Shown: positions 14,011-32,707 of the stretch, in pieces | Numbering within the stretch: position 1 is the stretch's first letter | How the letters are laid out: the number at the start of each line of letters is the position of its first letter | Source: an uncultured Pirellulaceae bacterium | GTDB taxonomy: Bacteria > Planctomycetota > Planctomycetia > Pirellulales > Pirellulaceae | Length of the DNA: 33,986 bases | NCBI GenBank assembly: GCA_937981585.1 | Contig: CALJOA010000142.1 | Coordinates: 1 to 33,986, forward strand | Direction of reading: 5' to 3' | Translations under genes and position numbers: made by a program | Notes under the pieces: model-generated | What the model was told of the DNA's origin: nothing | Databases searched by the model: none | What the model saw: only the letters and a program-made list of their open reading frames with translations

Positions 14011-15273
14011 TTAGCTACCTGCTCGCTTGAGCGCGGCGCGCTGGTGGCCAATCAAGCCCTCCAGTTCAGCCAGTCGGGCGGTGTCGTCAACCAATGACTG
14101 TGGCGCCGAATCAAGTTTCAACCACGTCCGCACGCGTACATAAGTGAACACGTTAAGTCCGGCGCTGAAGCGAGATGTTCCAGCGGTTGGCAATGTGTGA
14201 TTTGGTCCGGCACCGTAGTCTCCGAAGACTTCGGCTGATTGGTGTCCGATAAAGATGCAACCTGCATTGCGAATCACCTGGGCGATGGTTTCCGCTTCTT
14301 CGCAATGAAGTTCAAGATGCTCGGGCGCAAGTGCATCGCAAACTGCAACCGCATCTTCCATCGACTCGGCAACGATTGCGGCTCCATTTGCCAGCGACTC
14401 TCTGGCCGTTTCTCCAGTCGGCAACTGATCCAGTTGGCTGGAAAGTGCGGCAACAACTTGCTGGGCAACCGACTGAGACGTCGTCACCAAGAACGGCCTT
14501 GCGTCAACATCGTGTTCGGCTTGGGCAAGCAGATCAGCAGCGATTGTTTCTGGGTCGGCCGTTTCGTCAGCGACCAGCACCAACTCGGACGGGCCGGCCA
14601 ACATATCAATCCCGCAATCACCGCTGACGATTTTCTTGGCCGCAGTAACCCAGCGATTGCCCGGCCCAACGATCAGATCGCAACGCCGTAAATCAGTGAA
14701 CCCATAAGCCATCGCGGCGATTGCATGCGCACCTCCGATGGCGAGGACTTGGTCGGCGCCTGCGATTGCCGCCGTAGCCAACATCAAGTCCGAAGGATTC
14801 GGAGTCGCAAGCGTGATTTTGTCGCATTCGGCAACGACGGCCGGCACGACCGTCATCATCACCGTCGATGGCAACGCGTAGCGTCCGGCCGGCGCGTAAC
14901 AACCAACGTGTTCAATTGGTTCGATCGTATGTCCGGCCATTCCGCCGGGGACTTCTGTTTCAAGAGCGGACAAGCAATCGAGTTGCGCTTTGGCAAAGTC
15001 ACCGATCCGCTTGGCGACGCGTCTTAGTAGTTCGATATCTGCCGGATCGATTCGGCCGATCGCTGCTTTCAATTCGTCTTTCTCGATCAACAGCGGTTGG
15101 TCGTCGGTCCGTTCGCCAAACTTGTTGGCGTAGACGCGAATTCCGACTTCGCCATCGTTGCGTACCTCGGCAACGATCGCTTCGGCGGCGCTCATCGTTT
15201 CGGGATCCAAAGACGCCGTAGGGTCACCGGGTTGAAACGATTCAGCCTTGATAATTTTGAAGGGTGACGACAT
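14011..15273 (-). CDS. hisD: Histidinol dehydrogenase
   Basis: Oxidises L-histidinol to L-histidine with two NAD, the last step of the pathway; zinc-dependent and cytosolic. Length 420 aa is normal. Visible signatures are CYAPAGRYALPSTVMM, GGAHAIAAMAYG, VGPGNRWVTAAK, AGPSELVLVADE, QAEHDVDA, the catalytic pair in LAPEHLELH, and GPNHTLPTAGTSRFS. It is the last gene of the his operon. Its ATG overlaps the stop codon of the upstream hisIE gene (TGATG), so translation is probably coupled. Confidence 0.97.
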   Translation of the reverse strand: MSSPFKIIKAESFQPGDPTASLDPETMSAAEAIVAEVRNDGEVGIRVYANKFGERTDDQPLLIEKDELKAAIGRIDPADIELLRRVAKRIGDFAKAQLDCLSALETEVPGGMAGHTIEPIEHVGCYAPAGRYALPSTVMMTVVPAVVAECDKITLATPNPSDLMLATAAIAGADQVLAIGGAHAIAAMAYGFTDLRRCDLIVGPGNRWVTAAKKIVSGDCGIDMLAGPSELVLVADETADPETIAADLLAQAEHDVDARPFLVTTSQSVAQQVVAALSSQLDQLPTGETARESLANGAAIVAESMEDAVAVCDALAPEHLELHCEEAETIAQVIRNAGCIFIGHQSAEVFGDYGAGPNHTLPTAGTSRFSAGLNVFTYVRVRTWLKLDSAPQSLVDDTARLAELEGLIGHQRAALKRAGS

Positions 15274-16349
15274 CAGTTGCTTTCCGGATTCTCAAGTTTG
15301 TTCTTTCGCCGAACGACGCGGTTCATTCTTCGGGCAAGCTCTTGATGCACTCGCTCCAGTGTGACACCGTTTTTGAGCATCGCAACGAGTGAAAAGTACA
15401 GCACGTCGGCGGCTTCCCACGCAATCTCATAATCGTCGTCTTGTTGGCTGGCGTCGGAAAGCTCTTTGGCTTCTTCGAGCAGCTTGGTTTCCAACATTTT
15501 GGCATCGTTGGCCAATTTTCGCGTGAACGATTTCTCGTCCGTTTCATTGATGCGACTGGAGAGCCGTTCCATTACCGCCTGGATCGTGCGCTCGGCCCCA
15601 AAACAGGTATGCGTATCACGATGGCAAAAACCCGGCGGGTCCTGAGTGACCATAAAGCGAAGACAATCCCGGTCACAGTCCATTCGGATATTGATCATCT
15701 GCTGTGTCGCGCCGCTGGTTTCGCCTTTGATCCAAAGCCCGCCGCGCGAGCGAGACCAATAAGTCCCAACCCGATTTTCAATCGCGTGGTGAAGGCTTTC
15801 ATAATTCGAATATGCCAGCCCGAGCGCCGTCCCAAGCGGGTCAACAATGATTGTGGACCACAACTCATCCGGGCGATCACTGACCAGGACGGTCTTGAAA
15901 AAGTCGGTTATCAAATCAGCGGTCAGCAATTGGGCGTCGATCAAGCAATCGAACCTTGCCATCTCCAATTCGCCGATTCGATCGGCCGATGGCTGTGCCA
16001 AGGCAACTAGATAACCGCTGGGGATCGCTGCGTCGGGCGAGTCATCATCGATAACAAAACTGATTCGATCGTCCGGTACGGCGCCGAAGTCTTGCTGTGG
16101 ATCTTTGGAGAGAATCGTTGTCGCGCCGGCGTTGAGCAGTGCCAACGCAACCGTCTCGTCGTACTGACTGAGCTCAATTCCTAAATCGACCAGTCCACCA
16201 ACTCGCTTGACGACTGTTTCCAGCGACTCACAGTCGGCAGGTTCGACGCCCGACAAGGCGACGGTCCCGAACAAGCTCCAGTGCGTCAGTTTTTGGACCA
16301 ACTCGGCTGGGTCAACTGAAGATTGGTAGGTGATTGTAGGAATGATCAT
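15273..16349 (-). CDS. hisIE: HIS4-like bifunctional HisIE with extra N-terminal domain
   Basis: Fused phosphoribosyl-AMP cyclohydrolase and phosphoribosyl-ATP pyrophosphatase, steps 2 and 3 of histidine synthesis. The cyclohydrolase part (about 156-255) has YWSRSRGGLWIKGETSG, the DCDRD metal motif at 224-228, and Cys ligands C225, C242 and C249. The pyrophosphatase part (about 262-350) has EEAKEL and EAADVLYF. About 155 residues precede these (for example ALLNAGATTIL) and are absent from ordinary bacterial HisIE. From memory, yeast His4 has the same kind of N-terminal region and matches strongly through the rest. hisD follows directly, so the pair reproduces the HIS4 order as two overlapping genes. 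Confidence 0.92.
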   Translation of the reverse strand: MIIPTITYQSSVDPAELVQKLTHWSLFGTVALSGVEPADCESLETVVKRVGGLVDLGIELSQYDETVALALLNAGATTILSKDPQQDFGAVPDDRISFVIDDDSPDAAIPSGYLVALAQPSADRIGELEMARFDCLIDAQLLTADLITDFFKTVLVSDRPDELWSTIIVDPLGTALGLAYSNYESLHHAIENRVGTYWSRSRGGLWIKGETSGATQQMINIRMDCDRDCLRFMVTQDPPGFCHRDTHTCFGAERTIQAVMERLSSRINETDEKSFTRKLANDAKMLETKLLEEAKELSDASQQDDDYEIAWEAADVLYFSLVAMLKNGVTLERVHQELARRMNRVVRRKNKLENPESN

Positions 16350-16545: not shown

Positions 16546-17298
16546 CTACGCTCTAACTTCGATTCCTTTGGCTGCCAGTTGTTTTTTGACTTCGGCGACG
16601 GTCATGTTTCCGTCGTGAAAAATCGAAGCCGCAAGAACGGCGTGGGCTCCATGCTCGAACGCCTCGACCATGTGTTGAACCGAGTCAGCGCCACCAGAAG
16701 CGATAACCGGCAGACTGCACGCTTCCGTAACGGCGTTGAGCATCGGTAGATCGTAACCGCTGCGGGTTCCATCTCGATCGAAGCTAGTCAGTAGAATTTC
16801 GCCCGCGCCCAGTTTTTGGGCTGTCGCCGACCATTTTACTGCGTCGAGAGTTTCGGCTGTCGTTCCACTGCGCGTCAGGACTTGAAACATTCCATCGGTC
16901 ATTTTTGCGTCGATCGCAACGACGGTGCATTGTGCGCCAAAACGCACTGACATTTCATGGATTAAGTCAGGATTGCGAACGGCTGCGGAGTTGATACTGA
17001 CCTTGTCGGCTCCGGCATTCAAAAGTCGTCCGGCATCTTCGACCGATCCGATACCGCCTCCGACGGTCAGGGGAATCCCCAACTTGCGCCGAACTTTTTC
17101 CACGGTTTCCAGCATCGCGATACGATCCTGGCGTGTTGCGGTTACGTCAAGCAAAACCAATTCATCGGCGCCCTGGTCTTCGTAGTGAAACGAAAGCTCA
17201 ACCGGATCGCCGGCGTCGCGAAGGTTTTGAAATTTGACGCCTTTGACAACACGCCCGTCGTTGACGTCGAGGCAAGGAATGATTCTGGATTTTAGCAT
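16546..17298 (-). CDS. hisF: Imidazole glycerol phosphate synthase cyclase subunit
   Basis: TIM-barrel cyclase that uses ammonia from HisH to convert PRFAR to imidazole glycerol phosphate and AICAR. Length 250 aa is standard. The catalytic aspartates are D11 (IIPCLDVNDGRVVKG) and D130 (VVAIDAKM). Phosphate-binding motifs are VGGGIGS and VIASGGADS. It begins 2 nt after the hisH stop, which suits a stoichiometric HisHF complex. The 196-bp gap to the next operon gene contains the miniature inverted-repeat element. Confidence 0.97.
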   Translation of the reverse strand: MLKSRIIPCLDVNDGRVVKGVKFQNLRDAGDPVELSFHYEDQGADELVLLDVTATRQDRIAMLETVEKVRRKLGIPLTVGGGIGSVEDAGRLLNAGADKVSINSAAVRNPDLIHEMSVRFGAQCTVVAIDAKMTDGMFQVLTRSGTTAETLDAVKWSATAQKLGAGEILLTSFDRDGTRSGYDLPMLNAVTEACSLPVIASGGADSVQHMVEAFEHGAHAVLAASIFHDGNMTVAEVKKQLAAKGIEVRA

Positions 17299-17300
17299 GA

Positions 17301-17915
17301 TTAACTTTGGCCTCCGTTGGCGAACGTTTCACCGGCAATCCAGTTTTGCAAAACCTTCTGGCCCCATTCTCCGGACAGTTCCGGGTGAAACTGGCAGGCT
17401 AACATTCGGCCGCGCCAAATGCTGCTGATGAATTGTCCTCCGTACTCGGAGTTCGCGTAGCCCCAGCCCTCGGGTGGCTCGACTAACCGGAACGAATTGG
17501 CGAAATAGGCTTCGCCGGTTTGATAGGGGCCTTCGGTTTGCGGCTGAACAACGTTCCAGCCGAGCTGTGGGACTTTGACGTTGTCACCAAATCGTTTGAT
17601 CTCATGCGGAATGACACCAAGCCCAACTGACGTTTCGCATTCTTCGCTACTGCGGCCCAGCAACTGCATTCCAAGACAAATCGAAAGCGTTGCCAACTGC
17701 GGCGTGTTGATTCGCTCGATGATTGTTTCGCGAAGTCCCAGCCGGTCGATCGACTCGACGGCCGCCGCAAACGCGCCGACTCCGGGCAGTACGACATGCG
17801 ACGCAGTTTCGATATCGGATGGGCTTTCGGTGAGCTGCCATGGCTCGCCAAGCCGATCAAATGCGGCTTGAAGCGAACGGATGTTGGCCACGCCTGTGTT
17901 GATGATTTGGATCAT
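17301..17915 (-). CDS. hisH: Imidazole glycerol phosphate synthase glutaminase subunit
   Basis: Class I glutamine amidotransferase, 204 aa, supplying ammonia to HisF. The triad is visible as C80 in SICLGMQLLG with H177 and E179 in CQFHPELSG. VVLPGVGAF is the oxyanion-side motif. One small oddity: the usual YFVHSY segment reads AYFANSFRL, so the conserved histidine there is Asn. A 112-bp gap containing a REP-like hairpin separates it from the upstream hisCB gene. Confidence 0.96.
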   Translation of the reverse strand: MIQIINTGVANIRSLQAAFDRLGEPWQLTESPSDIETASHVVLPGVGAFAAAVESIDRLGLRETIIERINTPQLATLSICLGMQLLGRSSEECETSVGLGVIPHEIKRFGDNVKVPQLGWNVVQPQTEGPYQTGEAYFANSFRLVEPPEGWGYANSEYGGQFISSIWRGRMLACQFHPELSGEWGQKVLQNWIAGETFANGGQS

Positions 17916-18027: not shown

Positions 18028-19755
18028 TTACAAAACGCCTTTCGTGCTGGGAACCTCGCCATCGGTTCTGGTGAGGGCTTCGCGAAGCGCCTTGGCACAC
18101 GACTTGAACGCGGCCTCGGCCCGGTGATGATCATTGGTTCCGCGCAGCACGTCAATGTGTAGCGAACACTTAAGCGTCATTGCTAGTGATTGGAAAAAGT
18201 GAGTGATGTTCTCACAGGCCCACGTACCAACCATTTCACGTTCCAACTGCAAATGAATCTCCGGCCAGGGGCGACCGCTAAGATCGATCACGGTCCGTGC
18301 CATCGCTTCGTCCAGCGGTGCATAAGCATAACCAAACCGTTTGATTCCGGTTCGTCGGCCTAGCGCGGCATCGATTGCTGTTCCCAGTGCAAGGGCGCAG
18401 TCTTCGGCTGTGTGGTGATCATCCACGTGCAAGTCACCAACGCATTTGAGTTTTAGATCCATCCGGGAATGGAATGCCAGCGCGGTAAGCATGTGGTCGA
18501 GGAATCCGATCCCAGTTTCAATTTCCGTTTTGCCAGTCCCGTCGAGATTGACTTCAAGATCAATGTTGGTTTCCTTGGTCTCCCGATTGGAACTCCAGGT
18601 TCGATCACCCGACGCAGCGGAACCTGCTGCCAGCGGGATCGTTTGGGTCGCTTCGCTGGCAACGTTGCTGGGCTTGAGGGCAGCGCCAACAGCGGTTTTG
18701 TGTGGCTCGAATTCGGTTTCGGTTACGCGACAAAGTGATTGAGCGAGTCTCAAGAAATCGCCGGCTTGAACAGGGCAGGTGACCCGGATTCGGTTTTCGA
18801 GCAGCGGGTTGCCGGTGAACTTGCGAATTCCAATTCCGTCTTCTCCCAGTCCCGCCCAGATTTTTTCGGCGTTAGAAAACTCGGCGAACACAAAATTGCC
18901 TTGGGACGGAAACGGTTTGCCACCACATGACGTGATCAATTCAGTAACCAGTCCGCGAATCGCCCGAACGGCTGCAAGGTTTGACTTCATTTGATCCTGA
19001 TAATCAGACAAAGCCCGTCTGGCAGTTTCCAGCGAAACCGCGCTGACTGGAAATGGTCCCGAAGAGTTGCGAATCGTAGTGGCGTAGTCTGCTGTAGGGG
19101 CGATCAAGTATCCAACTCGCAGTCCCGCCAGCCCCCAGGCTTTGGAGAACGTTCGAACGATCATGATGTTGTCGTCGGTAGTCAAATCGGACGTGGGATC
19201 GTCATCGGCGAATTCAATGTACGCGTTGTCGACCAGTAGTTTTGCGCCGGCAGATTTTGCGGCGGAATTGACTTTGAGAATTGTCTCGGTTGAGATGTAA
19301 CCGCCGGTCGGATTGTTGGGAGACGTCAGCACAACCAACGCGGTGCTTGAATCGATCAGCCCGATCAACTTGTCGGTCGGAAAATCTCCTTCGATCCATT
19401 GAGTTGTTTCAACGCTGCCGCCGTAGTTGTGGCAGTAGATATCGACCATCTCAAACGATGGAGCGTGCGTGACGACTTTGTTTCGGTCATCTGAAATCGA
19501 ATTTCGCATGACGCGGTCGATAGATTCGTCGCCGCCTGCGGTAACAACGATCCGATCGCCTGAAACACCAACCCACTTTCCAATCAACTCTTGCAGTTCA
19601 ACGTGCGAGGGATATCGCGAAACGTAAGGAGTGCCGAGACTGCCTAGTTGATTATCCAAATCATCGATGGCGCATTGCGACTCGTTTCGGCTGAGCTGCA
19701 GCGTGATTTCATTTTTGAATTCGGGCGTTTTGTAGCCGCTGGGGTTCTTGGCCAT
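18028..19755 (-). CDS. hisCB: HisC-HisB fusion: histidinol-phosphate aminotransferase and IGP dehydratase
   Basis: 575-aa bifunctional protein. Residues 1-347 form a PLP fold-type I aminotransferase with SPNNPTG (145-151), DNAYIEF, and the Schiff-base lysine K205 in RTFSKAWGLAGLRVGY. An Ala/Ser-rich linker covers about 348-385. Residues about 386-575 are imidazole glycerol-phosphate dehydratase with GFLDHML (417-423), HVDDHHTAED (443-452), LDEAMAR, ENITHFFQSLA, GTNDHHRAEAAFK and the typical STKGVL end. The two domains catalyse steps 7 (HisB) and 8 (HisC), which are consecutive. No stop or frameshift lies between them. The familiar HisB fusion in enterobacteria is with the phosphatase, not the aminotransferase. 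Confidence 0.95.
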   Translation of the reverse strand: MAKNPSGYKTPEFKNEITLQLSRNESQCAIDDLDNQLGSLGTPYVSRYPSHVELQELIGKWVGVSGDRIVVTAGGDESIDRVMRNSISDDRNKVVTHAPSFEMVDIYCHNYGGSVETTQWIEGDFPTDKLIGLIDSSTALVVLTSPNNPTGGYISTETILKVNSAAKSAGAKLLVDNAYIEFADDDPTSDLTTDDNIMIVRTFSKAWGLAGLRVGYLIAPTADYATTIRNSSGPFPVSAVSLETARRALSDYQDQMKSNLAAVRAIRGLVTELITSCGGKPFPSQGNFVFAEFSNAEKIWAGLGEDGIGIRKFTGNPLLENRIRVTCPVQAGDFLRLAQSLCRVTETEFEPHKTAVGAALKPSNVASEATQTIPLAAGSAASGDRTWSSNRETKETNIDLEVNLDGTGKTEIETGIGFLDHMLTALAFHSRMDLKLKCVGDLHVDDHHTAEDCALALGTAIDAALGRRTGIKRFGYAYAPLDEAMARTVIDLSGRPWPEIHLQLEREMVGTWACENITHFFQSLAMTLKCSLHIDVLRGTNDHHRAEAAFKSCAKALREALTRTDGEVPSTKGVL

Positions 19756-19812: not shown

Positions 19813-20688
19813 TTACGGGACAAGCTGTTCGGCAGAAGTAGTGACGATGTCACAGGCTCCAGCGTTTTTCAGTTTGGGGATGATCTCGGCAAGGTCTTTT
19901 CTCAGGATCGCTGCCCGAACGGCAACCCAACCGGTGTCGCTGAGAGGGGAAACAGTCGGCGTTCGCATCGAAGGAAGAAAGCCACAGACGGCTTCCAGAT
20001 TTTCCTGAGCCACGTTAAGGTCCATCATCACGCGGCCACGGGCTTGGAGAACGGCTTTGATCAACATCGTAAAATCTTCGAGTTGTTCTTTGAGCGCTGG
20101 GTCCTGCATTGCGGCTTTGGAGGCGTACAACCGCGTGGAGGATGTCATCAACTGATCGATGATTTCCAACCCGTTGGCCCGGAGCGTTGAGCCGGTCGAC
20201 GTGTTGTCCATGATGCAATCGGCGTCCTCGGGCGGGAAGACTTCGGTTGCGCCGAAGGTTTGTAGTACTTCTGCATCGAGCTTGTTTTGGTCGATCCAAC
20301 GTTGGGCAAGATTGGGATACTCTGAAGCGACCGTGATCTTTCGATTCGGGAGCTTTCCGTCTTCAAGGATTTGGTGCGGTGCTGCGACGATCAATCGAAC
20401 TGGGTTAAGCCCGGTGTCGAGAAGTTCGACTAATTCGGTGCCGGTTTCCTCAATCCAGTCCTGGCCGGCAAATCCCAGGTCGCGTGAACCAGCGTCGAGC
20501 ATACTGATCACATTACGCGGCTTGAGGATTTTGGCGGTAAAGTTGGCCAGCGAAATATTTGGTCGATAACCGCGTTGAGAGTTACGAATCGAAATTCCAG
20601 CCGACTTGAGAAGGTCGACGACTTGGTCGAACATCCGTCCTTTGGGAAGTGCCAATCGGACTTCGGCGGGGTCGGGATTAGAAGACAT
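19813..20688 (-). CDS. hisG: ATP phosphoribosyltransferase, long form
   Basis: First enzyme of histidine synthesis, joining ATP and PRPP. With the ATG at 20688 it is 291 aa, the long form with a C-terminal ACT-like histidine-sensing domain (about 215-291), so no HisZ partner is needed. Motifs are VRLALPKGRMFD at the start, DLGFAGQDWIEE, and the PRPP loop region ADCIMDNTSTGSTLRANGLEI (quoted in part: STGSTLRANGLEI). The frame is open back to 20898, but that stretch covers the promoter, leader peptide and terminator, so 20688 is the real start. It heads the operon and is 57 nt upstream of hisCB. Confidence 0.96.
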   Translation of the reverse strand: MSSNPDPAEVRLALPKGRMFDQVVDLLKSAGISIRNSQRGYRPNISLANFTAKILKPRNVISMLDAGSRDLGFAGQDWIEETGTELVELLDTGLNPVRLIVAAPHQILEDGKLPNRKITVASEYPNLAQRWIDQNKLDAEVLQTFGATEVFPPEDADCIMDNTSTGSTLRANGLEIIDQLMTSSTRLYASKAAMQDPALKEQLEDFTMLIKAVLQARGRVMMDLNVAQENLEAVCGFLPSMRTPTVSPLSDTGWVAVRAAILRKDLAEIIPKLKNAGACDIVTTSAEQLVP

Positions 20689-20736
20689 GATTGCCCTTTG
20701 TTTCGCGGATTGGAGTGTAGTTTGGGTGAATCGGCC

Positions 20737-20766
20737 AAAAAAAAACGCTGACCTGTGGCCAGCGTT
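20737..20766 (-). terminator. his operon attenuator (intrinsic terminator)
   Basis: On the minus strand AACGCTG, GCC, ACA, GGT, CAGCGTT form a GC-rich stem (20766-20744), followed by nine T residues (20745-20737). This is a textbook Rho-independent terminator. It lies 45 nt after the leader peptide stop and ends about 48 nt before the hisG ATG, so it must be bypassed for the operon to be expressed. Confidence 0.88.
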
Positions 20767-20810
20767 CTGTGATTTGCATTTCGCAACGTCAGAATAAAAG
20801 TCCACAACCG

Positions 20811-20864
20811 TCATCCGAAAAGATGATGTGCATGATGGTGGTGTGTGTGGACGTTCGATTGCAT
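20811..20864 (-). CDS. hisL: Histidine operon leader peptide
   Basis: A 17-codon frame on the minus strand encodes MQSNVHTHHHHAHHLFG and stops at TGA. Seven of 17 residues are histidine, within codons 6-14. It lies between a strong promoter and an intrinsic terminator, directly upstream of hisG. This is the arrangement of ribosome-stalling attenuation: low charged tRNA-His stalls the ribosome on the His codons and frees downstream RNA to block the terminator. GTCCACA in codons 5-7 (plus-strand 20846-20852) pairs perfectly with TGTGGAC after the stop (20800-20806). No Shine-Dalgarno is present; the predicted transcription start falls on or next to the ATG. Confidence 0.88.
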   Translation of the reverse strand: MQSNVHTHHHHAHHLFG

Positions 20865-20870
20865 GGAGAA

Positions 20871-20898
20871 ATTTTAAGCGGTAAATGCCCGGTGTCAA
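20871..20898 (-). promoter_or_regulatory. his operon promoter
   Basis: On the minus strand TTGACA (20898-20893) is followed after 16 bp by TAAAAT (20876-20871), a near-consensus sigma-70 promoter. Six bases (TTCTCC) then separate it from the leader ATG at 20864, so transcription should begin at or next to that ATG. Confidence 0.78.
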
Positions 20899-21002
20899 CC
20901 GGTTTTTGAACGATTGGTGCTCAAGCTCACGGCGGTATCGGTGCGATCCCGCCAGATGAAGGATTAAGTAGGTCCAGCTATTACCTTTTCGAAAATCCGG
21001 CT

Positions 21003-21680
21003 TTAGCCGCCGCTGTTTTCGGCTTGCTCTGCTGAATCACCAAATCGTTTGCGGATCTGCGAAACCATTCTTGATTTGATTTGATAGATCACATTGGTCG
21101 TCACGTTATGGTCGTCGGCGATTTCTTTGGCTGGCTTATTATCCATCAACAGCCCTTTCAAAACCGACTTGTTCCGATTTTTGGATTTGGACCGTTGTTC
21201 GATCCACGCAAATATCGTTGAGACAAATTTGCTTTTCTGATCGGACTGTTTCTGTCGTCGCTCCCAAACCGAATCGAACCGCTGAGACGTTGGATTTTTG
21301 GGAAACGGAATTTCGTACATTCTCTGTTGCCAGTTCGATCCACCAACAGTGGCCAGATCACCAGAGCCTTTTGAGTAGATGTGGTTGCGCGTTATCGTAT
21401 ACAACCAACCTGGAAACGATCCGCGATTCTCAAGTTCCTGATAACTGTTAATGTTCTTGACGACTTTCGTGAAAACGTCTTGAACAACGTTCTCTCGTTC
21501 GTGAGGGCACCTCACACCTTTTTCTTTGGCCCAATCACAAATCACGGGAGAGTAAAGTTCGTAGAGCAACTCCCATGCAGCGGGATCGTCGGCCTTGAGC
21601 TGTTCGATCAAAGTCTGGCGCGGATCGCTCCCGCTTTTTTTGGTCGTATGAGCAAGGCTATCGTGTTGCGTCTCCGCCAT
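21003..21680 (-). CDS. ECF-type RNA polymerase sigma factor
   Basis: 225-aa sigma-70-family protein. Region 2 spans about 25-105 (WELLYELYSPVICDW, ENVVQDVFTKVVKNI, GSFPGWLYTITRNHI). Region 4 at about 165-215 reads LLMDNKPAKEIADDHNVTTN then VIYQIKSRMVSQIRKRF, a helix-turn-helix. The two regions are joined by a basic linker of about 60 residues rich in K, Q and R. Region 3 is absent, as in ECF factors. No anti-sigma factor is adjacent; the neighbours are the his operon and a SUFU-domain gene. Target genes are unknown. It may belong to one of the planctomycete-expanded ECF groups. Confidence 0.88.
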   Translation of the reverse strand: MAETQHDSLAHTTKKSGSDPRQTLIEQLKADDPAAWELLYELYSPVICDWAKEKGVRCPHERENVVQDVFTKVVKNINSYQELENRGSFPGWLYTITRNHIYSKGSGDLATVGGSNWQQRMYEIPFPKNPTSQRFDSVWERRQKQSDQKSKFVSTIFAWIEQRSKSKNRNKSVLKGLLMDNKPAKEIADDHNVTTNVIYQIKSRMVSQIRKRFGDSAEQAENSGG

Positions 21681-30757: not shown

Positions 30758-32707
30758 ATGACCAAGCAGCCAGAATCGAGCGGATCGTCTTTACCGCGCG
30801 ACGGTTCCGCTTTGGGTTCCGAGTTGTCGGCTTCGTTTGGCAAACACAATTCGAACCGGCCTGCTGGCCAGTCAAATCAATCGCCTGAGAAACGTCCTTC
30901 CAAACCTTCGCTCGGTGCTCCCAATCCAAAGCTGCGTCGGCGCCGAACGACTGCAGTTAGCAAAGAAGAAGGTAAAAGCGAAATCGTTGAAGGAACGCAA
31001 CGAACCGAAACACCGGGAACTCAAAAGAAGAAGGTTTCAAGCCAACCCAACCACCAGACCAGCTCGGTTTCCAAATCTCAGCCCAACCTCGCCGCCTTCG
31101 CACCGCGGGTGCGACGCCCAGCAGTCGACATCGGTCAATCTGACGCAGGTCACCGGGCCACTAAATACTCGTTTCTCAATCCGCCCGTCGTCGATGAAGA
31201 GTTGCTAAACAACTCGTTGCAAGATTTGAGTGGTGAAGACGAGATCTTCGAATTCGATCGGTTTGGCAAACGTTTCGTTCCGGTTCCCAGTTTCCTGGCC
31301 AGCACTGCGGTTCATCTGTGTGTCTTTCTTGCACTGGCGTTTATTGTTAACAGCGTCGAGTTGCCTTCGCAGCCAGCCATCAGCATCGTTGCCGAGTTTG
31401 ACGCGACACCTGTTCCGGTCAAGCCAACTGACACCGACACTGTTGAAACTGTTGAGATTGTAGATCCGCTGGAAAACAAATCGCCGTTGGAAGAAAGCGC
31501 CGACGCCTTGTCGACCGACGAGGAAATGGAAGTCGCGGCCGATACCGATATACTCCCCAGCGTCGTCATCAATGACTTCGAACCATCTCCCGTTGAAAAC
31601 ACGGCCATCAACGCAGTTGTTGCAACGTTGCCTTCGGGTGGAGGGCTTGAAGGTCGCGAGCAAGCCTCGCGCGCGAAACTGGCAGCCAGTCGCGGAGGAT
31701 CGCGGGCGAGCGAAATTGCTGTCGAAAATGGACTGCGCTGGATCATCAATCATCAGCGGGACGATGGTAGTTGGCGTTTCCATCACGACGATGGCAAGTG
31801 CGATGGCGGTTGTCGAAATGAAGGCACGCAGGAATCGACGACTGCGGCGACGGGAATGGCGCTGATGTCATTGCTGGGCGCCGGCTACACTCAGCGGACC
31901 GGTCCCTATCAGGAAGAAGTTCGCAAGGGCTTGGCGTTTTTGGTTGACAAGATGCGAGTCGGTCCCCGAGGCGGCAGCTTGCGTCATGGCGAAAATGGTA
32001 TGTACTCGCATGCGATCGCGACAATCGCGCTTAGCGAAGCCTACATCATGACCCGCGACACGAGCTTGGTTCAACCGATCGATTTAGCCCGACAGTACAT
32101 CGAGACTGCCCAGCACAAAAAAGGTGGTTGGCGATATGTGCCTGGAACGGTGGGTGACATGACGGTGACTGGTTGGCAAGTGATGGCGCTCAAGAGTTGT
32201 GAGCGAGCTGGTTTCTCGACGGGCGAGGTTACCTGGGATCTCGCGGACTCGTTCGTAAAATCGCTTGGTACCAGCGACGGGAGGTTTGGCTATCAACGTC
32301 CCGAGGCCCAAACGCCGATCACGACGGCGGTTGGAATGCTCTCCCGGATGTACCTAGGGGCGTCATTGGAAGACGACCAAATCGAGCTAGGATGCCAATA
32401 CCTGATCGAGCGGAAACCCTCCAAATCTGACATGTATTTTAACTACTATGCTACGCTGGTTCTCCATCACCGTAGCGACAAAGACTGGCCCAAGTGGAAT
32501 GTCGAGTTAAGAGATTACTTGATAAATACACAAGATAATGCGGGCACACATTCCGCCGGGAGCTGGTATTTTGCGGACGAACATGGTGCTGTCGGTGGCC
32601 GGCTCTATACGACAGCAATGGCTGTGATGACCCTTGAGGTCTATTATCGATACATGCCGCTTTACCAACCCAAGCCCCTTGCTGGGCGCCAAGTTGGGTT
32701 CCAGTAA
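30758..32707 (+). CDS. Prenyltransferase/squalene-oxidase-repeat membrane protein
   Basis: 649 aa. Residues 1-175 are low-complexity, rich in Ser, Pro, Lys and Gln. One membrane helix is at about 178-199 (FLASTAVHLCVFLALAFIV). An acidic spacer (about 215-290) follows. Residues about 325-640 are alpha/alpha-barrel repeats with the QRDDGSW, KKGGWRY, GRFGYQ and AGSWYF motifs of the squalene-hopene cyclase/prenyltransferase fold. The DXDD cyclase motif is not seen, so it is not expected to be a terpene cyclase. Such proteins are common in planctomycetes, with unknown function. The gene is 104 bp after the YCF48 gene on the same strand and may share its transcript. Confidence 0.85.
   Translation: MTKQPESSGSSLPRDGSALGSELSASFGKHNSNRPAGQSNQSPEKRPSKPSLGAPNPKLRRRRTTAVSKEEGKSEIVEGTQRTETPGTQKKKVSSQPNHQTSSVSKSQPNLAAFAPRVRRPAVDIGQSDAGHRATKYSFLNPPVVDEELLNNSLQDLSGEDEIFEFDRFGKRFVPVPSFLASTAVHLCVFLALAFIVNSVELPSQPAISIVAEFDATPVPVKPTDTDTVETVEIVDPLENKSPLEESADALSTDEEMEVAADTDILPSVVINDFEPSPVENTAINAVVATLPSGGGLEGREQASRAKLAASRGGSRASEIAVENGLRWIINHQRDDGSWRFHHDDGKCDGGCRNEGTQESTTAATGMALMSLLGAGYTQRTGPYQEEVRKGLAFLVDKMRVGPRGGSLRHGENGMYSHAIATIALSEAYIMTRDTSLVQPIDLARQYIETAQHKKGGWRYVPGTVGDMTVTGWQVMALKSCERAGFSTGEVTWDLADSFVKSLGTSDGRFGYQRPEAQTPITTAVGMLSRMYLGASLEDDQIELGCQYLIERKPSKSDMYFNYYATLVLHHRSDKDWPKWNVELRDYLINTQDNAGTHSAGSWYFADEHGAVGGRLYTTAMAVMTLEVYYRYMPLYQPKPLAGRQVGFQ

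Follow-up and report, generated by a model that had tools for sequence, protein, structure and literature searches.

The window, i.e., the whole stretch of 33,986 nucleotides that was analysed, comes from a genome of 3.5 Mb (158 contigs, 80% complete) and carries a his operon on its minus strand, with hisG, a hisC-hisB fusion, hisH, hisF and a HisIE-like gene in this order 3' of a short leader (Table 1). The assignment to a planctomycete made in an earlier note on this DNA agrees with the nine named hisG relatives, the closest records being Mariniblastus sp., Pirellulaceae, Planctomycetaceae and other Planctomycetota MAGs. The HisIE-like protein has 358 aa, and its residues 1-160 had no NCBIfam match at E 0.001. 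On the other side, a sigma-factor-like gene (21003-21680) is located on the same strand as the leader and ends ca. 140 nt 5' of the leader ORF. The frame of hisG stays open through the leader and the promoter up to a TTG at 20898 (19813-20898, minus strand), so that automatic annotation could call a HisG of 361 aa hiding the leader.

The 17-codon peptide with seven His codons, the TTGACA and TAAAAT promoter boxes with a 16-nt spacer, the intrinsic terminator with nine U before hisG, and the two segments TGTGGAC (20806-20800) and GTCCACA (20852-20846) that can pair with each other had all been pointed out in the earlier note, and we found each of them at exactly those coordinates. The terminator (AACGCTGGCC/ACA/GGTCAGCGTT, 20766-20744) has a 10-bp stem and a 3-nt loop. 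When both strands were scanned for ORFs of 8-45 codons, the leader ORF had seven His in 10 codons, and one other ORF in the whole window reached four (exactly four, at 32084-32179 on the minus strand, MPTSHRHVTHRSRHISPTTFFVLGSLDVLSG).

Table 1. Elements of the leader and genes of the his operon in the window.
Feature	Positions	Strand	Basis
-35 element TTGACA	20893..20898	-	sequence reading; TTGAC kept in Pirellulaceae leaders
-10 element TAAAAT, ends 6 nt 5' of leader ATG	20871..20876	-	sequence reading and promoter-spacing comparison
Leader peptide ORF, MQSNVHTHHHHAHHLFG*, 17 codons, 7 His	20811..20864	-	sequence reading; ATG 20864-20862
Regulatory His codons (codons 6, 8-11, 13, 14)	20823..20849	-	sequence reading
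Segment 1 (GTCCACA), potential partner of segment 2	20846..20852	-	sequence, centroid fold; weakly supported across relatives
Segment 2 (TGTGGACTTTTATTCT), antiterminator 5' side, 5th-20th nt past stop codon	20791..20806	-	folds
Segment 3 (AGAACGCTGGCC), terminator 5' arm, common to antiterminator	20757..20768	-	folds
Segment 4 (GGTCAGCGTT), 3' arm of intrinsic terminator	20744..20753	-	sequence, folds
U-tract, nine T	20737..20745	-	sequence reading
hisG, long form with HisG C-terminal domain	19813..20688	-	TIGR00070 E 1.9e-43, TIGR03455 E 1.3e-26
hisC-hisB fusion gene	18028..19755	-	profile match
hisH	17301..17915	-	profile match
hisF	16546..17298	-	profile match
HisIE-like gene	15273..16349	-	best NCBIfam match under the family's curated cut-off, begins at residue 161

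His-rich leaders upstream of related hisG genes

We have scored as a leader any ORF of 8-45 codons with at least four His in 10 codons within 400 nt 5' of hisG. In the genus, 24 of 28 genomes (that of the window among them) had a hisG match, 19 of them close (at least 69% identity) and five weak (29-31%), and a search of 199 genomes of the family gave six more hisG of the window's type, 47-65% identical. Loci with upstream sequence identical to that of others (L002-L008, L010, and L009, by eye identical to L035) were dropped; L013-L020 are near-copies, as are several rows, so that the counts are not independent. The threshold was passed by 21 of the 25 Pirellulaceae loci of the window's hisG type, and by 24 when the weaker cases are included (L025 and L028 reach three His in 10, and the leader of L026 is at -408). 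His is the commonest residue in these 24 leaders, with 126 codons. The sole one of the 25 loci without a leader is L034 (G064). A promoter-like pair, TTGACC and TATCCT, can be recognized by eye ca. 350 nt upstream of the hisG of L034, with no His ORF behind it.

The search was extended to the phylum, where 39 of 391 genomes (counting that of the window) had a match at E <= 1e-55, and to the class of one phylum match, where 38 of 297 genomes had one at E <= 1e-50. Together they gave 63 distinct further matches, the best 47 of which were fetched. We take this distant group (L046-L092) to be largely Phycisphaerae, and it may span more than one class. Among the 46 distant loci with enough upstream sequence (L091, with only 58 nt, is outside this number), 42 passed the threshold, or 43 with the weaker cases. 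Here L061 reaches three His in 10, the leader of L081 is degraded, L063 is cut by the contig end with its His run visible, and L092 has no leader. L034, L081 and L092 contained no stretch of at least three His in 10 codons up to 1500 nt upstream. In L081 we recognized by eye a hairpin and a frame that begins with GTG and contains two His. Other residues pass the same four-in-10 threshold in fewer distant loci, e.g., Arg in 21 and Pro in 13, none of them near the 42 of His. The peptides of the distant group show recurrent endings, e.g., HPRGxR, RVGC and VAG; these coincide, by eye, with RNA pairing to the terminator arm, so that RNA pairing may dictate the C-terminus of the peptide.

With the same script and threshold, none of 61 loci carrying other types of hisG had a leader; they comprise the five weak matches of the genus, six of 33-36% identity, 20 native Pirellulaceae hisG picked manually across genera from the family search list, and, for the class of G205, the 30 hisG with the best TIGR00070 scores. 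Three His in 10 are reached by one of these 61 controls, L098. A His-rich leader was also absent from 23 leuA and 24 trpE loci, all controls together giving 0/108 (leuA L147 and L158, trpE L172 and the weak or partial L168, L169 and L195-L197 were left out). Shuffled upstream regions passed the His threshold in 11/500 and 8/920 cases. The test set beforehand in the earlier note, relatives with the operon that lack the His run or the terminator, came out in favor of an attenuator. As for the equivalent switches of other operons, no Leu- or Trp-rich leader recurs 5' of leuA or trpE in the genus, bar three near-copies (L179, L184 and L185), which have a TTG-started frame with 2-3 Trp, ca. 420-435 nt upstream and without TTGAC. 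The leuA-family loci L163, L164 and L166 (G009, G027 and G006) contain one or two in-frame stops in the matched stretch.

Promoter spacing and folds of the leader RNA

The sequence TTGAC begins 34, 35 or 36 nt 5' of the leader ATG in all 24 Pirellulaceae leaders, over a background of 0.0019 per position, and it is found at -34 to -41 in 32 of 43 distant leaders (background 0.0007). A promoter that starts transcription at the ATG would have its -35 box at this conserved position. A Shine-Dalgarno-like motif was found 5' of the leader ATG in none of the 24 Pirellulaceae leaders and in one of the 43 distant ones. The his leader of Escherichia coli has a Shine-Dalgarno sequence. The fixed position of TTGAC in 24/24, together with the missing Shine-Dalgarno-like motif, indicates that the leader mRNA is probably leaderless. 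From the promoter spacing we infer a start site at the leader ATG or within ca. 2 nt, with a predicted 5' UTR of ca. 0-2 nt in Pirellulaceae leaders and 0-6 nt in the distant ones, and the start codon would probably sit at the very tip of the RNA. An attenuator with an ordinary 5' UTR, and with its main promoter elsewhere than at the conserved TTGAC/-10 pair, could be argued from the start site being a predicted one and from the 11 of 43 distant leaders that have no exact TTGAC within 45 nt 5' of the ATG. We consider it unlikely, given the invariant spacing over so low a background and the lack of a Shine-Dalgarno-like motif in any of the Pirellulaceae leaders. A leaderless attenuator has a precedent in the trpL of Sinorhizobium meliloti, whose attenuator RNA starts directly at the leader ATG (PMC7298713); there the 5' end is stated, and tryptophan and an alphaproteobacterium are involved, while here it is predicted, for histidine in a planctomycete.

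The elements, their conservation and their folds were established by computation. For the 132 nt from 20862 to 20731 of the window the folding energy was -39.1 kcal/mol; 200 shuffles had a mean of -28.6 (sd 3.3), and none of them was as low. The antiterminator takes segment 3 plus the terminator loop and one base upstream, with predicted pairs of TGTGG with CCACA, CT with GG and TTCTG with CAGAA. These pairs differ in detail from the pairing of TTGTGG with CCACAG proposed in the earlier note; a second one proposed there, CTGAC (20792-20788) with GTCAG, is absent from the predicted antiterminator folds and was rejected. For the window leader we modelled ribosome states on an RNA that stops at the terminator loop. 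A ribosome stalled at codon 6, 8, 9, 10 or 11 gave a pairing of 0.84 between arm 3 and upstream sequence, as compared with 0.18 for a ribosome at the stop codon and 0.31 for the ribosome-free RNA. On the full-length RNA, the terminator at equilibrium reached 0.99 without ribosome, 0.99 with a stall at codon 9 and 0.93 at the stop codon. As the terminator was the favored fold at equilibrium in all the states tried, the switching must be kinetic, i.e., co-transcriptional.

A usable terminator hairpin (-10 kcal/mol or lower) was found in 64 of 67 leaders, counting L024 and L026 with hand-set ends; U-tracts are short in many distant leaders. The three exceptions (L053, L065 and L079) were left out of the antiterminator folds, the test of the helix between segments 1 and 2 (1:2) and the exchange of arms, which used the other 64. 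With the post-stop spacer alone, arm pairing in Pirellulaceae was 0.64 vs. 0.43 in shuffles (14/24 at or below 10/200), and in the distant leaders it was below shuffles, 0.28 vs. 0.41 (3/40). An antiterminator made from the post-stop spacer only was accordingly rejected for the distant relatives, and their segment 2 is to be placed in coding sequence. The analysis that includes the last codons was designed after this result was seen. In it the ribosome was modelled early in the His run, the free RNA beginning 15 nt past the first base of the second His codon and extending up to the terminator loop. The stalled-ribosome antiterminator folds had mean energies of -17.6 vs. -13.2 kcal/mol shuffled in the 24 Pirellulaceae leaders (13/24 at or below 5/100) and of -30.1 vs. 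-23.2 kcal/mol in 40 distant ones (30/40 at or below 5/100). The paired fraction of the arm in this state was 0.69 vs. 0.45 shuffled (17/24) and 0.70 vs. 0.53 (13/40), respectively.

In the window's lineage segment 2 directly follows the stop codon, and in the distant leaders it is mostly found within the last codons. In 56 of 64 leaders (all except L021, L037, L056, L064, L068, L073, L074 and L089) the computed span of segment 2 falls between positions -24 and +20 relative to the stop codon, and a ribosome located at this codon would cover all or part of it. The pairing of segment 2 was also stronger with the arm of the same leader than with the arms of other leaders, at -12.6 vs. -10.4 in Pirellulaceae (0/10000 permutations) and -17.7 vs. 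-16.6 in distant leaders (16/10000), in permutations that ignore relatedness. The 1:2 helix, which would safeguard the terminator in untranslated RNA, had been stressed in the earlier note, and its segments can indeed pair, but it turned out to be the weakest element across relatives, with a paired fraction slightly over shuffles (0.63 vs. 0.50, 4/22 Pirellulaceae; 0.58 vs. 0.55, 2/42 distant). By energy, 1:2 pairing was above shuffles in 11/22 Pirellulaceae and 13/42 distant leaders. As a conserved element, the 1:2 helix is weakly supported.

A predicted his attenuator and the competing readings

By most computable tests this leader is very probably a ribosome-mediated transcription attenuator of the his operon. 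The interpretation is that of the earlier note, which had described the locus exactly, with the corrections concerning the 1:2 helix and the CTGAC:GTCAG pairing. The start site, translation, stalling and read-through are the steps that we infer. Transcription would start at the leader AUG or a couple of nucleotides away, and a ribosome would load onto the 5' end of the RNA without a Shine-Dalgarno sequence. With little charged His-tRNA available, the ribosome would stall within the His run and leave segment 2 exposed to pair with the 5' arm of the terminator as this arm emerges; with the antiterminator formed there would be no terminator, and hisG-hisCB-hisH-hisF-hisIE would be transcribed. 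When His-tRNA is plentiful, the ribosome would get to the stop codon and its footprint would cover segment 2, the 3:4 terminator would form, and transcription would end ca. 50 nt before hisG.

Similar switches are well known elsewhere. The hisL of E. coli and Salmonella has a His-rich leader ORF, a terminator and a mutually exclusive antiterminator (PMC9413887, PMC1183508). The window leader is alike in its short His-rich ORF, its intrinsic terminator and its mutually exclusive antiterminator, and differs in having no Shine-Dalgarno-like motif, a start placed by prediction at the AUG and a weak 1:2 helix. His-leader attenuators, with three to five consecutive His codons (PMC9413887), have been described in three lineages of Firmicutes and also before hisS paralogues in bacilli (PMC9413887, PMC2965389). 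The window leader resembles those of the three lineages in its terminator and antiterminator, and is like them a His-codon peptide outside Proteobacteria, although in a different phylum. Leader-peptide attenuators have been placed in Proteobacteria, Actinobacteria and some Firmicutes (PMC2965389, PMC9413887), and neither of these papers names planctomycetes in its main text. The window had no match to any Rfam family at the gathering threshold, nor in 20600-21000 at E up to 10, i.e., no similarity to hisL that Rfam would detect; the His_leader covariance model (RF00514) did not match the leader. Rfam holds a T-box model as well, and a T-box riboswitch was rejected for lack of any Rfam match. 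We have found no his or histidine leader attenuator of Planctomycetes or Phycisphaerae in the open-access literature (many classical papers are outside it), and the author of the earlier note likewise knew of none described in planctomycetes. His attenuators and a leaderless trpL are known elsewhere, and what is new here is the variant in Planctomycetota, none of which we found described.

It is quite improbable that the leader controls the translation of hisG, by reinitiation or sequestration, and not the termination of transcription. In several phyla, including Planctomycetes, a peak in the leader-gene distance has been explained by reinitiation, a role thereby proposed for leader ORFs in many phyla (PMC4833913). 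However, here the leader stop is 122 nt 5' of the hisG ATG (20688), and a terminator-like hairpin with nine T is located between them. There is hardly any room for considering the hairpin as the terminator of the upstream sigma-factor-like gene and the His-rich ORF as due to chance or as an unrelated small protein. That gene lies close by on the same strand, and the hairpin with its U-tract is a good terminator by itself, but a promoter-like pair separates the gene from the leader, the His run and the hairpin appear together in most loci of the window's type (the His run in 0/108 controls), and the antiterminator pairing exceeds chance. Just as hard to sustain is a His-rich peptide that acts in trans or binds metal, attenuation being secondary, for which peTrpL of S. 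meliloti is a precedent (PMC7298713), as the residues outside the His run differ among the less related Pirellulaceae leaders and the recurrent endings of the distant ones coincide, by eye, with the RNA pairing.

Operon history and possible transcription-translation coupling

The leader goes with the operon. In most of the 199 family genomes the best hisG match is far weaker (26-36% identity among the matches listed), and none of 26 such weak-type loci outside the genus carries the leader, which argues that leader and operon are associated. We have also built a HisG tree of 93 rows (72 proteins of the window's type and 21 of 41 others) by a quick method with SH-aLRT support, for which the program warned of long branches. 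In it 23 of the 25 Pirellulaceae HisG form one group (support 99), and the other two (L038 and L039) group with the distant L076 and L087 (support 99); segment 2 of L038 and L039 is inside the ORF, like in the distant leaders. The next frame after hisG looks like hisC in both groups (12 loci, by eye).

We searched the 28 genomes of the genus with a covariance model of the post-stop part of 13 leaders; the model contains no ORF, and its 12 base pairs are those of the terminator stem. Matches at E 1.1e-6 or lower were obtained for 19 hisG leaders, including the 13 training sequences and near-copies of them. An untrained locus in G027 ranks among these 19 (9.6e-7), followed by one in G009 (1.3e-5). 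Both new loci have a His-rich ORF just 5' of the match (MNSTHPYSHHHLHRSHFIK and MNITHPDSHHHLHRSHFIK) with TTGAC ca. 35 nt 5' of its ATG, and in both (L198, G027:C104; L199, G009:C160) the leader is directly before a hisC-like gene, named by eye, which in L198 is a frame of 581 residues, as for a hisC-hisB fusion. No hisG of the window's type was found in G027 (71% complete) or G009; the only match in each is a weak one elsewhere in the genome (29-31% identity). It looks as though the operon had retained the switch but exchanged its first gene. The three weaker matches examined (G004, G003 and G005; E 6.6e-5 to 0.0065) were terminator-like hairpins without a His-rich ORF, and the next match in the window's own genome had E 0.045; L202 was left out of the loci examined after this search.

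These observations go beyond the earlier note in the probably leaderless mRNA, with a -10 box 6 nt from the ATG, in the spread outside the family and in a leader that travels with its operon. We consider it reasonably probable that his attenuators of this leaderless, ribosome-stalling kind are widespread in Planctomycetota, are passed between lineages together with the operon and can persist when its first gene is lost, and that they are evidence of coupling. They would be his attenuators in which the AUG leaves the polymerase first, and an example of a regulatory RNA inherited along with its operon. Ribosome-mediated attenuation requires the leading ribosome to be close behind the RNA polymerase (PMC1183508), and separated transcription and translation have been claimed for Gemmata obscuriglobus (a claim mentioned in PMC6212462 and PMC5394234). 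Since each of these switches needs a ribosome tailing the RNA polymerase, the class as a whole would argue from genome data that transcription and translation are coupled in the phylum to which G. obscuriglobus, with its claimed spatial separation of the two, belongs, and such a family of switches would provide a simple reporter for testing coupling directly.
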